The position numbers and the translations under genes were made by a program. This document shows, one piece after another, positions 45,109 to 50,770 of a stretch of 64,000 bases of DNA (position 1 is the stretch's first letter; each line of letters opens with the position of its first letter). The notes under the pieces were generated by a model that was given only the letters and a program-made list of their open reading frames with translations, was not told the DNA's origin and searched no databases. The stretch lies in assembly GCA_016192145.1 (NCBI GenBank), contig JACPUT010000017.1, positions 1 to 64,000 of the forward strand, given 5' to 3'. The DNA comes from Acidobacteriota bacterium (GTDB lineage: Bacteria; Acidobacteriota; Holophagae; Holophagales; Holophagaceae).

Positions 45109-45615
45109 TCACCACTCCTTGTAGGGGGCGCCGTTCATGCCATTGCCCTGGGCGAGGCTGTAGACGTCGAAGACATGGCCACCGCCCCAGCTGGTGCTCG
45201 TGGGGTCGTCACTGGAGCTGCGCATGCCCCACTCGGGGCGGCCGGTGAAGGGATCCAGGGGAATGCGGCGGAGGTACTTGATCTTCCGGCTGGCGCTGCC
45301 CGTGGCGGCGACGCCTTCGATGAGCTGTTCGAGGCTCTCGGGGCAGAAGTTGGCTTCCACGGGAGGGGCCTTGATCTTCTGGGCCTGGGCATCGGCGCGG
45401 AAGGCATCGATGGCCATGCGCATCTCGCGCAGGTCCCGGCGCAGCTCCAGCTCCTTCTGCCGTTGGATGGCATTCTTCATGATGGGGACCGTGGCCGAGG
45501 CGAGCACCATGAGCACCGTCGCGGTGACGAGGAGCTCCATCAGCGTGAAGCCACGCTGGCGCAGGGTTCGGGTTCCGTCCCGGAGGCCTGCGGCGGCTGC
45601 GGCGAGCCCGGCCAT
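45109..45615 (-). CDS. GspG-like type II secretion / type IV pseudopilin
   Basis: The 168-residue protein has the type III-style prepilin cleavage site RGFTLMELL (cut between G22 and F23, with E27 as the conserved fifth residue). A hydrophobic helix follows (to about residue 45), then a globular GspG-like domain ending with DVYSLAQGNGMNGAPYKEW, where GspG usually has a calcium site and an aromatic end. It is the last gene of the pil-like operon and its start overlaps the secretin stop (ATGA). It is the only pilin-like gene seen in this window. Confidence 0.85.
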   Translation of the reverse strand: MAGLAAAAAGLRDGTRTLRQRGFTLMELLVTATVLMVLASATVPIMKNAIQRQKELELRRDLREMRMAIDAFRADAQAQKIKAPPVEANFCPESLEQLIEGVAATGSASRKIKYLRRIPLDPFTGRPEWGMRSSSDDPTSTSWGGGHVFDVYSLAQGNGMNGAPYKEW

Positions 45616-47933
45616 CACTCCACCGTGACGAGCGCGTTCACCCAGCGGCCACTGACGGGAATGCTCCCGGCCATGAAGCTGCCGCCCTGGATGATGACGG
45701 TGCCGTTGCCGGCGGCCAGGGCTTCCAGTTCCATGGTGACGAGGGTCCCGCTGTCGGAGCCGCTGCCGTTGCGCTTGAAGGAGAGCTTGGTGCCCTCGGG
45801 GGCCGCCTTCTGTTCCAAGGTCCCCGATTCCGCGGAGAGCCACTCGGAAGCGGAGGTGGATAGGAGCTTGAGGTTCGGGCTCACCCGCACATCCAGGCTG
45901 CCGGCGGAAATCCCCTGACCCCCGCTGACGAGGAAGCTCACCTGGACCTTGTCGCCCTGCCTGGCCTGCTGCACCACGGGGCTCACGTAGATCACGAGGT
46001 CGGAAGCCTGGGGGGACCGCGCCGCCTGGGTTTCCACCGTGGGCGGCACCTCGGTGATGTCCTTCGACTTGGGCGCTTCGGCCGGGGCCGGGGGTTGGGT
46101 TGGGGTGGAGGGCGTGGTCAGGGCCGGGGCCTGGGGAGTGGAGGGCGTGACGGGCTGGGGTCCGGCCTTGGCTGGGGTGGGTTTCGGTTTGGGGGCGAAG
46201 GGGCCCGCCTGGTTGAAGGCTTCGTCGGGGTTGTAGGCCTGCAGATCCCGCTCGGTGAGGTTGGGCTTGCGCACGAGCACGGCGCGCACCGTGAGGATCA
46301 CGTCCGTCTTGGCCTTCTGGGTGCGGGTGTTGGAGGTGAGCTGCCGGATGATGGGCAGGTCCGCGAGGCCCCAGATGCCCTGAAGGCTCTTCTGCTCCTC
46401 ATCTTTCAGGAGGCCACCGAAGATGGCCGTTTCGCCATCTCGCAGGCGGGTGTAGGTCTCGATGGAGCGCAGGCCCAGGTCAGGGCGGCCCGGCGTGGAT
46501 CCGGACTTGAGCGTGGTCACCTCGGTCTTGAGCTTGAGGGTCACCTCGCCGTTGTAGTGGACGCGGGGCTCCACCTCGATCTTCACGCCTACGTTCTCGT
46601 AGCTGTAGTTGGTCTGGCCCACGCCGCCGAGCCCGGCGGGCAGCTGGGTCGAGGCTCCGGTGGCGCCGGTGCTGGGTAGGCTGAGGCTGCTCTGGGTGGT
46701 GCTGATCTTCTCGCCGATGTTGACGGTGGCCTTCTCGCCGCTGACGGCGCGCACATTGGGGCTCGCCACCAGCTTCGCATCCCCGTCGGCCTTGAGGGCG
46801 TCCAGGGCGAGGCTGGGGAAGAGGAAGCGCACGTCGGACTTGCTGATGCGGATGGCGCCCTTGTTCTGGTTGGGGCCACCGGTGTTGTCGATGGTGGCGC
46901 CGATGCGGAAGATGCCGGATTCATCGCCGGGTCCCAGCACGGGCAGGAGGCCCACCTTCTCGAGGCTGTTCTCGGTGACTTCCATGAGTTCGAGGTAGAC
47001 CATCACCTCGGCCTTGGGTTTGTCCATCTGGTTGATCACGCGATCCACGACGGCGAGTTCCTCCCGCTTGGCCCGGACGCTGATGGCGCTCATGCGTTTG
47101 TCCTGCACGATCTTGAGCAGGGGGTTCAGCGTGACGAGCATCTGCCGGATGGGCTCGGGCTCCGCGTAGCTGAGGTAGTAGGTCTTGATGATGACGTTGT
47201 CGTATTTCTCGCGGTTTTGCTGGGTGTCCTTGAAGACCATGATGGTGTTCTTGTCCATCACCCGGTAGAAGAGGTCGTTTTGAAGCATCAGGGTGTCCAG
47301 GGCGCGCTGGAAGGTGAGGCCCTGGAGGTCGATGGCGACGCTTTGATCCTGATAGCTGGTGTGCATGATGATGTTCACGCCCGTGGCGCGGCTGAGGGTG
47401 GCGAGGATCTCGCGCAGGCTCGTGCGGGTGCGGAAGGTGGCGCCCATGGGCGCGTCGCTGTTGGGAACGATCTGGATGACGGAGTGACCGTCCGCCTTGG
47501 CCTTCAGGGTGTCCACGTCCTCCGTGGCCGCGTCGGACTCCTGCTGGCGCTTGACCTTGCCTTCGAGCTCCACGTACCAGTCGGCGGCCGCCTGGTTGTC
47601 GGGATCGAGGACCACGGCCTTGCGGAGGATGTCGAGCACCACCTTGTCCTCGAATCCCTTGCGCTCGGCCTCCCGGGCCTTGGCCAGGTGGACTTCCGCG
47701 GCGCGCATCTTGGCGCGCTGTAGGCCGATGCGGGCCTTCACGTTGGTGGGGTCGCCCTTGAGCACCTGCCGATAGGCGGCGAGCGCCTCCTCGTAGCGTT
47801 CCTCCTTGTAGGCGGTGTTGGCCCGGTGGAGGTTGCAGCCGACGACGAGGAGGACCAGGGCGAGGGCCGAGGCCGCGCGGGCGAACCGCGCGACCGGGGC
47901 GTTGGAGGTGAAGGGGAGCCGCATCATGCCCAT
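45615..47933 (-). CDS. Secretin lipoprotein (PilQ/GspD-like) with C-terminal cohesin-like domain
   Basis: The 772-residue protein has a lipoprotein signal ending LLVVGC (C33). TPR-like helices follow (about 37-130), then a short N0 domain with a SLREILATLSRATGVNIIMH motif (STN-type), an N1-type domain (YYLSYAEPEPIRQMLVTLN), and the secretin barrel (about 360-590). The barrel includes VRAVSGEKATVNIGEK, VGVKIEVEPRVHYNGEVTL and TAIFGGLLKDEEQK. After a Pro/Ala-rich linker (about 605-665) comes a cohesin-like beta-sandwich (about 670-772, VVQQARQGDKVQVSFLVSGG). It should form an outer-membrane channel. The cohesin fusion is the main oddity; its partner (dockerin-like or other) is unknown. Confidence 0.9.
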   Translation of the reverse strand: MGMMRLPFTSNAPVARFARAASALALVLLVVGCNLHRANTAYKEERYEEALAAYRQVLKGDPTNVKARIGLQRAKMRAAEVHLAKAREAERKGFEDKVVLDILRKAVVLDPDNQAAADWYVELEGKVKRQQESDAATEDVDTLKAKADGHSVIQIVPNSDAPMGATFRTRTSLREILATLSRATGVNIIMHTSYQDQSVAIDLQGLTFQRALDTLMLQNDLFYRVMDKNTIMVFKDTQQNREKYDNVIIKTYYLSYAEPEPIRQMLVTLNPLLKIVQDKRMSAISVRAKREELAVVDRVINQMDKPKAEVMVYLELMEVTENSLEKVGLLPVLGPGDESGIFRIGATIDNTGGPNQNKGAIRISKSDVRFLFPSLALDALKADGDAKLVASPNVRAVSGEKATVNIGEKISTTQSSLSLPSTGATGASTQLPAGLGGVGQTNYSYENVGVKIEVEPRVHYNGEVTLKLKTEVTTLKSGSTPGRPDLGLRSIETYTRLRDGETAIFGGLLKDEEQKSLQGIWGLADLPIIRQLTSNTRTQKAKTDVILTVRAVLVRKPNLTERDLQAYNPDEAFNQAGPFAPKPKPTPAKAGPQPVTPSTPQAPALTTPSTPTQPPAPAEAPKSKDITEVPPTVETQAARSPQASDLVIYVSPVVQQARQGDKVQVSFLVSGGQGISAGSLDVRVSPNLKLLSTSASEWLSAESGTLEQKAAPEGTKLSFKRNGSGSDSGTLVTMELEALAAGNGTVIIQGGSFMAGSIPVSGRWVNALVTVE

Positions 47934-47951
47934 CCTGTTACAGGTGTTCGT

Positions 47952-48623
47952 TCAGTATTCGTTGGTCACGGTGCCCGCGCCGTTCGCGGGATTCCCCGAG
48001 CCGTCGCGGGTGGCGAGTTCAAAGCGGAGATCCTGGAAGCGCAGGTTCTGGAACACGGCCTTGCGGTCGGTGAGTTCCGCCAGCTTCCACTTATCCTTGA
48101 GGATCGTCCCGAGGGTGAGGGGCTGGGCCTCCTCGCCCTTCATGAAGGCGCCGATCTGGCCCGCGGGGCTGCCCTTGAGGAAACCGAGGTAACGGAGTTC
48201 CTGGGGGCGGGAGTTGTTCTCATCGGACTTCTGCTGGGCGAGGAGCTCTGCGTCGATCTGGGTCTGGGTCTTGGGCGGAGGGGGCTCCACCTTGAGGGGC
48301 TTCGGCGGTGGCGGCGGTGGCTTCGGTGCCTCGAAGAGGAAGGGGTCCCGCAGCAGCTTCGGGATGGCGGGGATCTCACCCGCCTGATCCAGCATCGCGA
48401 GATCGGGCAGCTTGCGAAGGGATACCAGCGCCTTGGGATCCAGGAAGGTGGTGTTGGCGGCGGTCGACGTGCCGCCCCTCCGGGCCTTGGGAGCCTCGGG
48501 CCAGAACATCCAGACGAGGATCCCGGCGAAGACCACGAGGGCCACCTGGGTCTGGCGGTTGGCCTTCAGCTCCGCGAGCATGGCCTTGGGATCGAAGGAG
48601 GACTTGGAAGCGGGCGTGGACAT
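47952..48623 (-). CDS. PilP-like inner-membrane lipoprotein/anchor protein
   Basis: The 223-residue protein has a single membrane helix (about residues 27-41, VALVVFAGILVWMF) and a Pro/Lys-rich stretch (about 100-118). A beta domain follows (about 135-223, LRYLGFLKGSPAGQIG, then LTLGTILKDKWKLAELT). This is the PilP or GspC homology-region plan that contacts the secretin N0 domain. It lies between the secretin and PilO genes. There is no lipobox, so PilP lipidation is absent. Confidence 0.75.
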   Translation of the reverse strand: MSTPASKSSFDPKAMLAELKANRQTQVALVVFAGILVWMFWPEAPKARRGGTSTAANTTFLDPKALVSLRKLPDLAMLDQAGEIPAIPKLLRDPFLFEAPKPPPPPPKPLKVEPPPPKTQTQIDAELLAQQKSDENNSRPQELRYLGFLKGSPAGQIGAFMKGEEAQPLTLGTILKDKWKLAELTDRKAVFQNLRFQDLRFELATRDGSGNPANGAGTVTNEY

Positions 48624-49189
48624 TACGCTTCCTCCTCGGCCTTGGCCCCATCCCGGGGCTTGAAGGCCCTGAGGACGATGGTGAGGCGGGCGCCTTCGGG
48701 GCTCTCCTCCAGGCGGGCATCCCGCACGGCGAAGGGCAGGCCGGAGCTTTCGAGGCTGCGCAGGTAGGCCCGCAGGGGGGCGTAGATGCCCAGGGCCGTG
48801 AACTCCACTTCCACCGCGTCCAGATCCCCCTCCTTGGTGGCAGGGCTGTACTTGATGGTGGAGAGTCGCACGTTGTCCTTGGCGGCCAGCTCGTGCAGGG
48901 CCTTGCTCAGCTTCCACTGGAGATCGCCGGCGCTGCCCTGGGGCAGGCGGGCTTCCAAGGCGGCCAAGGTGGCTTGGCCCCGTTCCAACTTGCTGGCATC
49001 CGTCTGCAGGGACTTGAGGCGATCATCCTGCTGCTGTTTGAGCTGCTTGGCCTGATCGCGCACCCGGCGCTGGCGGCTGAGGGAATCCGAGGCATCCGGC
49101 AGCACGAAGGTGAGGAGGGCGAGCCCGATGAGCAGGGCCACGGCGCCGCCCAGGGCGCGGTAGCGGCTGTCGCGAAGGGAGGTGCTCAT
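48623..49189 (-). CDS. PilO/GspM-like inner-membrane protein
   Basis: The 188-residue protein has an N-terminal membrane helix (about residues 13-30, ALGGAVALLIGLALLTFVL), a charged coiled coil (about 35-75) and a ferredoxin-like periplasmic domain (about 95-180) with the pattern SGLPFAVRDARLEESPEGA. This is the PilO plan. It starts in the PilN stop (ATGA) and its own stop shares a base with the next start. Confidence 0.8.
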   Translation of the reverse strand: MSTSLRDSRYRALGGAVALLIGLALLTFVLPDASDSLSRQRRVRDQAKQLKQQQDDRLKSLQTDASKLERGQATLAALEARLPQGSAGDLQWKLSKALHELAAKDNVRLSTIKYSPATKEGDLDAVEVEFTALGIYAPLRAYLRSLESSGLPFAVRDARLEESPEGARLTIVLRAFKPRDGAKAEEEA

Positions 49190-49872
49190 GGCTTCCTCCG
49201 GGGCGTGGCGCGCATGGGAACGGGCGCGCTGCGGGCGCCGATCGGCTTGAGGGGAGCGGGGTCAGCGGCGGTCTTCACGGCGGGCTGGGGGTGGGCCTTG
49301 AAGGGGGCCGGCGTGCCGGTGGCCGCCAGGGTGAGCTCGAAATCCCAGCCCGCGCCCTGGCGCTCGCTCTCGCGCTCGAGGCCCACCTGGGTGAACACGG
49401 GAGCCTGCTGCAGCGCTTCGATGAAGGCCACTTCGGCCTCCCGGGATTTGGCTTCGGCCTTGATCTTCATCTGCACGCGATCGCGCCCCCGGGAACGCTG
49501 GATTCCCTTCATCCGGACACCATCCGGCATGCACTGCTCCACCTCGGAGAGGAGGCGGGAGAGGGGCAGGGCGCGCTCTTGGAGGATGCGCTCCGCATTG
49601 CGCCATCGGGGCGTCTCCTTGGCGACATCGAACGCGGCCAGCTGGGCCAGCAACTGCTGCTCCCGCTTCGCGGATTTCCGGGCCTCCTCATTGAGCATGA
49701 AGGCTTCGCGGCCCGCGCGGCGGGCCTCCCAGTAGGCCCTGCCGGTGAGCCCGGCGACCAGGATGAGGACGCCCAGGCCGAGGCCGAGGATGCCCCAGCC
49801 CAGGTGCAGGTGACGCTGACGCCAGAGCGTGGGTTGGGGGGCCAGGTTCAGTTCGAGGCGCGGAAGGCTCAT
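49186..49872 (-). CDS. PilN/GspL-like inner-membrane protein
   Basis: The 228-residue protein starts MSLPRLELNLAPQP, the PilN N-terminal motif (the LNLAP type, which binds the cytoplasmic PilM). It has one membrane helix (about residues 25-45) followed by a coiled coil and a ferredoxin-like periplasmic domain (about 85-185). A Pro/Ala-rich tail ends it. It lies between the PilM-like and PilO genes with ATGA overlaps. Confidence 0.8.
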   Translation of the reverse strand: MSLPRLELNLAPQPTLWRQRHLHLGWGILGLGLGVLILVAGLTGRAYWEARRAGREAFMLNEEARKSAKREQQLLAQLAAFDVAKETPRWRNAERILQERALPLSRLLSEVEQCMPDGVRMKGIQRSRGRDRVQMKIKAEAKSREAEVAFIEALQQAPVFTQVGLERESERQGAGWDFELTLAATGTPAPFKAHPQPAVKTAADPAPLKPIGARSAPVPMRATPRRKP

Positions 49873-50597
49873 GGGCGGGCCTCCTGTCCGGCATCTTCAT
49901 GGAGGATCCGCACGGGCAGTTCAGGGCAGGCCCAATCAGGGGCGCCATGCACGTGAAGGGCCTGGGGGCTGCGGCTTTCCCGCTGGAGGTAGGCGATGGT
50001 CGGGGCCAGGCGCTCATCCTGCCAGGTGGACATGTCGGCGGGTTCGGCCCAGGCCCGCAGGAGGGAGAGGGTGCGGCCCCAGGCCGCGAGGGTGCCCGTC
50101 CAGCGACCAGGGCCCGCGGGGCTCAGGCTGAGGAGCAGGCCCGGCGCGTCCATGTCGGCGGCGAGCCGGTTGTAGAGGTGGAGCCACCGGGGCTGGAGGC
50201 TGTGGATGGGGCGCTCCAGCCGCTGGGCCAGGGCCATCCAAGCATCGCGCCGATCCTCGCGGATGCCCGAGGCCAACCAGAGGCCGGGCTCCACGAGCAG
50301 CGCCTGCACGGCGTGGGGAGCGTCCAGGGCCATGGATTGCTGGAACTTCCACCGCCAGAAGGCCTCGCGGGCCTCGGTGCCCTCAGGCAGCTCGGCCACG
50401 TCCCGGAGGAGGATGGAGGGGGCGAGGAGATCATCGAGGATCCAGGCGGTGGGGCCTGGGTCCAATGCCGTGAGGGCCTGGGCCAGCTGATCTTCGGTGG
50501 GAAGGCCGGAGAGGGGGCGATCCCATCGGATTTCGGGAGGCTCGCCGGCCCTCAGCCGGTGGCTCTCCACCCAGAGGGGCCGCATGGGGCTGCTCAT
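49869..50597 (-). CDS. PilM/GspL-cytoplasmic-domain-like protein
   Basis: The 242-residue protein has no membrane helix and is placed exactly where PilM stands, before PilN. Its sequence is highly diverged: no clear actin-like nucleotide motif was found, and it is shorter than PilM (about 350). The segment FQQSMALDAPHAVQALLVE resembles the middle of PilM-type proteins. The call rests mostly on gene order and on the LNLAP motif of the next gene. Start at 50597 by the ATGA overlap with the small membrane protein. Confidence 0.6.
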   Translation of the reverse strand: MSSPMRPLWVESHRLRAGEPPEIRWDRPLSGLPTEDQLAQALTALDPGPTAWILDDLLAPSILLRDVAELPEGTEAREAFWRWKFQQSMALDAPHAVQALLVEPGLWLASGIREDRRDAWMALAQRLERPIHSLQPRWLHLYNRLAADMDAPGLLLSLSPAGPGRWTGTLAAWGRTLSLLRAWAEPADMSTWQDERLAPTIAYLQRESRSPQALHVHGAPDWACPELPVRILHEDAGQEARP

Positions 50598-50770
50598 CGA
50601 CGATCCTGGTCCCGGCCCTCCTGGGCCTCCTTGAACCGCTTCACGAAATGCCGCTCGGCCCGATTCTGCCCCACGTACCATCCGAAGCAGAAAATCCCCA
50701 CGGCGCTGAAGACATGGATCCACCACCAGCCGGAGCCGAGAAAGCGCATGGACTCTGGGAGGGGGGGCAC
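50594..50770 (-). CDS. Small single-pass membrane protein heading the pil-like operon
   Basis: A 58-residue frame starts at GTG 50770 behind AGGAG. One membrane helix is clear (about residues 16-33, WIHVFSAVGIFCFGWYV), followed by a charged basic tail (RAERHFVKRFKEAQE). It overlaps the PilM-like gene by ATGA. It has no recognised family. A later ATG at 50749 is possible but has a weaker ribosome binding site. It is too short for most gene callers. Confidence 0.6.
   Translation of the reverse strand: MPPLPESMRFLGSGWWWIHVFSAVGIFCFGWYVGQNRAERHFVKRFKEAQEGRDQDRR

Follow-up and report, generated by a model that had tools for sequence, protein, structure and literature searches.

A probable Pul/Oxp-like type II secretion operon of Acidobacteriota with a cohesin domain on its secretin and motor genes apparently encoded elsewhere

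The window, a stretch of 64,000 nucleotides, lies on contig C17 (155,563 bp) of a 3.8-Mb genome assembled in 19 contigs, whose closest relatives among the matches listed are Geothrix and other Holophagaceae of the phylum Acidobacteriota. Seven genes run from position 50770 to 45109 on the minus strand, with smc upstream in divergent orientation and a tRNA-Leu/rpsO pair downstream. The start and stop codons of the M, N, O, and P genes overlap, the secretin gene starts 18 nt past the P gene, and the ATG of the pseudopilin gene overlaps the secretin stop codon; third-position GC is 0.83-0.92 across all seven. The original prediction of seven coupled genes for a small membrane protein, PilM-, PilN-, PilO-, and PilP-like proteins, a lipoprotein secretin, and a GspG-like pseudopilin was borne out, in the case of the M and P proteins by way of operon position and relatives.

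The first gene (50597..50770) has a GTG start after AGGAG and encodes a 58-aa membrane protein with one hydrophobic stretch, 39-56% identical to its relatives at the same place. It is followed by the genes of the 242-aa PilM-position protein (49869..50597), which is shorter than PilM, a PilN-like protein (49186..49872; PF05137, 3.5e-7), a PilO/GspM-like protein (48623..49189), and the PilP/GspC-position protein (47952..48623), which has a transmembrane segment and a Pro-rich linker. The O protein resembles T2SSM_b (0.0015) and XpsM (NF040576, 6.9e-8), and that of relatives matches PilO (5.5e-4). The M and P proteins have no Pfam or NCBIfam match of their own. In hhalign comparisons with the same operon positions in relatives, N reached 99.6%, O 97.9%, P 98.3%, and M 43.8%, so that P, placed by operon position, is backed by its profile and may be assigned as PilP/GspC-like, and M, likewise placed by position, is only weakly backed and is a tentative PilM equivalent; relatives' M proteins match PilM_2 (1e-10). 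The last gene (45109..45615) encodes a GspG-type major pseudopilin of 168 aa with the motif G/FTLMELLV (N_methyl, 1.4e-6), which matches TIGR01710 (GspG) at 3.8e-8, under the cut-off. No minor pseudopilins of the H-I-J-K type lie within the operon, and relatives' operons carry one or two further pseudopilins; a motif scan for prepilin peptidase, confined to the retrieved loci, gave none.

The secretin (45615..47933, 772 aa) is a lipoprotein with the lipobox LVVGC and a channel domain at 46272..46799 (PF00263, 8.5e-29), and its best NCBIfam model is GspD (TIGR02517, 2.6e-31, under the equivalog cut-off). TPR repeats follow the lipidated Cys at the N-terminus (47535..47837; PF13414, 5.1e-5), with a profile that matches TPR structures, as had been proposed. 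At the C-terminus, joined through a Pro-rich linker of about 80 residues, is a cohesin domain (45618..46007). The profile of this domain matches PDB cohesins (3l8q, 1.3e-12), its AlphaFold (AF2) model has a pLDDT of 93.6, and the best 28 Foldseek matches of that model are all cohesins, the first being 2xdh (1.4e-8, TM 0.87). The domain is thus a true cohesin by both sequence profile and fold, in agreement with the original prediction, and the structure prediction returned no other fold. The view of the cohesin as an annotation artefact was ruled out by the PDB profile match and the Foldseek result. The domain profile has a single match in the genome, the secretin itself; a Pfam cohesin search of the same genome gave no match because this copy is divergent. 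PF00963 is found on this secretin in 12 of 20 diverse relatives (best 1.4e-13), and many of the PF00963 matches of the phylum sit on the secretin. The domain shares fold and sequence profile with non-cellulosomal cohesins (Archaeoglobus 2xdh), but differs from them in being fused to a secretin, and the literature searched yielded no account of secretins that carry a cohesin. An export channel fused to a cohesin is a conserved feature across a whole, poorly studied soil phylum.

The secretin is matched in 137 of 149 Acidobacteriota genomes, so the operon type is not a product of chance. Relatives' genomes were scanned with a 7-sequence alignment as seed, and 80 loci were kept. The operon order over Acidobacteriota is F-E-M-N-O-P-Q-G-(H), with F and E in front of the window-type operon in less closely related Acidobacteriota; in the Holophagaceae, the family of the window, E and F have moved out of the operon to solitary loci. 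One Holophagaceae MAG keeps M-N-O-P-Q-G with E directly upstream of M and F alongside; its contig (L137) has two N runs, or scaffold gaps, within E (L137:5719-6444), and the 3' half of E is contiguous with M. In two further loci, L067 (G123) and L066 (G025), the operon is cut down to F-E-Q-G-H, and nothing recognisable as M-N-O-P lies between the E and secretin genes.

The original prediction also held that a motor ATPase and platform protein are lacking, which is correct for contig C17, where domain searches found no E, no F, and no second secretin, but fails for the genome as a whole. All T2SSE and T2SSF proteins are encoded on other contigs, and the suggested search for unlinked genes located a solitary E at C7:531810-533408, beside nuo genes, and a solitary F at C1:122207-123391; two other E/F sets are those of a type IV pilus (C7) and of a T2SS-like cluster (C3). 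The solitary E scores 509 bits against TIGR02533 (GspE; cut-off 630), and the solitary F matches TIGR02120 (GspF) at 8.2e-79, under the cut-off. Operon-encoded E proteins of relatives share 57-64% identity with the solitary E and about 36-44% with PilB. In maximum-likelihood trees that included the PilB/PilC and C3 T2SS copies, the solitary E groups with operon E (100/99), away from PilB and the C3 T2SS, and the solitary F groups with operon copies (99/97), away from PilC and the C3 T2SS, being nested in operon F and sister to the same class (100/99). The solitary E and F are accordingly placed by phylogeny as orthologues of the operon's own E and F.

Of 61 Holophagaceae genomes, 59 retain the solitary E, at about 80-85%. 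Two 1.2-Mb Holophagaceae genomes, 96-97% complete, retain the window-type secretin with its cohesin domain, the solitary E, and a single F that is of the solitary type; searches of both gave no further secretin or F. A third reduced genome (0.9 Mb, 84% complete) has kept E and F, and no secretin was found in it. The trees, the retention, the reduced genomes, and the MAG with linked E and F together indicate that the motor is dispersed, not lost. A motor-less system was ruled out by the finding of unlinked E and F genes elsewhere in the genome and by the two trees. It is highly improbable that the operon instead borrows PilB/PilC of the type IV pilus or the E/F of the C3 T2SS, or works passively: the genome does possess full pilus and C3 T2SS motor sets, but the solitary E and F are orthologous to the operon's own and survive where other F proteins and secretins have been lost. 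Type IV filament operons that seem to be "motor-less" can thus reflect gene dispersal, which bears on the automated detection of such systems. Since the streamlined 1.2-Mb relatives appear to have no other secretin system left, this machine probably serves something basic.

With regard to its class, the best-scoring families for the secretin, E, F, and pseudopilin are GspD, GspE, GspF, and GspG, respectively, so that a GspD-type secretin, a dedicated GspE, a dedicated GspF, and a GspG pseudopilin are all present, with E and F unlinked. A type IVa pilus would combine PilB, PilT, and PilC with PilMNOPQ and PilA in a single system; the window operon is not part of such a set, the pilus genes of the genome being separate and the E and F trees standing apart from PilB/PilC. 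Type IVa pili and T2SSs are closely related members of one superfamily, and this kinship, with the PilMNOP type of the inner-membrane proteins, would accommodate a pilus or adhesive filament in place of a secretion machine; such a filament is unlikely, however, in view of the best matches to Gsp components, the lack of a retraction ATPase alongside the operon in relatives, and the separate type IV pilus set that the genome carries on C7 and C18. The second T2SS-like cluster of the genome (C3:106000-124000, L015) comprises E, F, pseudopilins, and a 546-aa secretin.

The window system shares GspD-, GspE-, GspF-, and GspG-like parts with the canonical T2SS (GspC-M), but has PilMNOP-type proteins where GspL, GspM, and GspC would be, lacks a detectable H-I-J-K set, adds TPR repeats and a cohesin to its secretin, and has no part that reaches an NCBIfam equivalog cut-off. 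The closest described system, likened here on the basis of its literature description, is the atypical Pul/Oxp T2SS of Geobacter, which secretes the multicopper oxidase OmpB and is described with the pseudopilins PulG and OxpG, and with TklG (PMC3543383). PulG and OxpG of that system have a parallel in the two pseudopilins that follow the secretin in relatives of the window operon, whereas the Holophagaceae have E and F at separate loci and a single pseudopilin left in the operon. Geobacter loci were not among the 80 loci kept in the scan of relatives. The window system is best regarded as a genuine and conserved variant of T2SS-like machinery, and the operon quite probably represents the envelope-spanning part of a Pul/Oxp-like T2SS within the type IV filament superfamily, ancestral to the Acidobacteriota and supplied with E and F in trans.

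In such a machine, the solitary E and F would power the PilMNOP-like proteins in trans, a short pseudopilus would be built from the GspG-type pilin, and this pseudopilus would drive folded proteins out through the secretin. Like lipidated secretins of the HxcQ type, the window secretin is itself a lipoprotein and so may need no pilotin, but it departs from them in its TPR repeats and cohesin domain. The TPR lipoproteins TadD and PilF are pilotins in other systems, and the secretin N-terminus of one relative shows a weak match to the Myxococcus TPR lipoprotein Tgl (0.0021). The window secretin, being a lipoprotein equipped with TPR repeats as such pilotins are, may thus get to the outer membrane with no separate pilotin, its lipidated TPR N-terminus possibly standing in for one.

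The position of the cohesin can be judged by analogy with other secretins, whose C-terminal S-domain is bound by pilotins on the periplasmic side (PMC10499894). The cohesin would for this reason most likely sit in the periplasm, which makes an extracellular position at the channel mouth, and surface display through it, unlikely. It was suggested originally that the domain captures or displays dockerin-bearing proteins at the channel, and the identity of the domain as a cohesin lends itself to that suggestion. The accompanying proposal to search the genome for dockerins did yield one above the Pfam cut-off (9.4e-6), located at the very C-terminal end of a secreted protein of 1206 aa. A dockerin is present in 57 of the 149 genomes, and among 12 Holophagaceae sampled, 11 carry 1-2 each, on thermolysin-like and papain-like proteases and on beta-propeller proteins. 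In family f9, however, all 14 genomes have a Pfam cohesin, on cohesin-secretins, and none of the 14 has a Pfam dockerin, which argues against dockerin binding as the general role of the secretin cohesin. With the likely periplasmic C-terminus and the lipoprotein that adjoins each dockerin gene examined, described below, this renders dockerin capture at the channel improbable, and that part of the original prediction is not upheld. Within the preferred Pul/Oxp-like T2SS, the likely periplasmic cohesin probably has as its ligand a conserved partner or cargo, which need not be a dockerin. In four genomes of family f17 (G016, G030, G043, and G068), 13-40 dockerin matches each were found, with almost no Pfam cohesin and with either no match to the secretin or a weak one.

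The dockerin of the window's own genome adjoins a cohesin-like lipoprotein of its own. In all 6 Holophagaceae loci examined (L021:8653-12866 on C7 of this genome, L245, L247, L248, L249, and L250), the gene immediately after the dockerin gene encodes a "CGGGGGG" lipoprotein of about 185-202 aa. This lipoprotein has no Pfam match, and was modelled with a cohesin fold at a pLDDT of 83.4 from an input alignment that itself contained cohesins, half of its 12 rows being small lipoproteins of other families, most of which match Pfam cohesin. In hhalign it scored an insignificant 1.3% against the secretin cohesin and, against dockerin-adjacent Pfam cohesins, 96.9% with the lipobox linker and a borderline 49% (E 1.7e-4) without it. 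The lipoprotein is thus a predicted cohesin-like protein, mainly on its fold. Outside the Holophagaceae, a lipoprotein gene of about 175-212 aa adjoins the dockerin gene in L252, L253, L254, L255, and L258, and 6 of the 7 dockerin-adjacent small proteins aligned from other families match PF00963, a count biased by the selection of most of these loci for nearby dockerin and cohesin matches. Each dockerin protein and its lipoprotein may possibly form a one-to-one surface anchoring cassette, and this phylum-wide pair is the best new lead. It is distinctly doubtful that the periplasmic secretin cohesin recruits exoproteins tagged with a dockerin, or otherwise tagged, and then passes them to surface cohesin lipoproteins; such a hand-over, if true, would couple secretion to anchoring. 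Culturable Geothrix strains put both the cargo and the cohesin ligand within direct experimental reach. At L245 (G087 C1:588000-607000), a dockerin-bearing thermolysin-like protease adjoins pseudopilin genes and a second secretin, and its gene neighbourhood suggests that it may be exported by a different T2SS.
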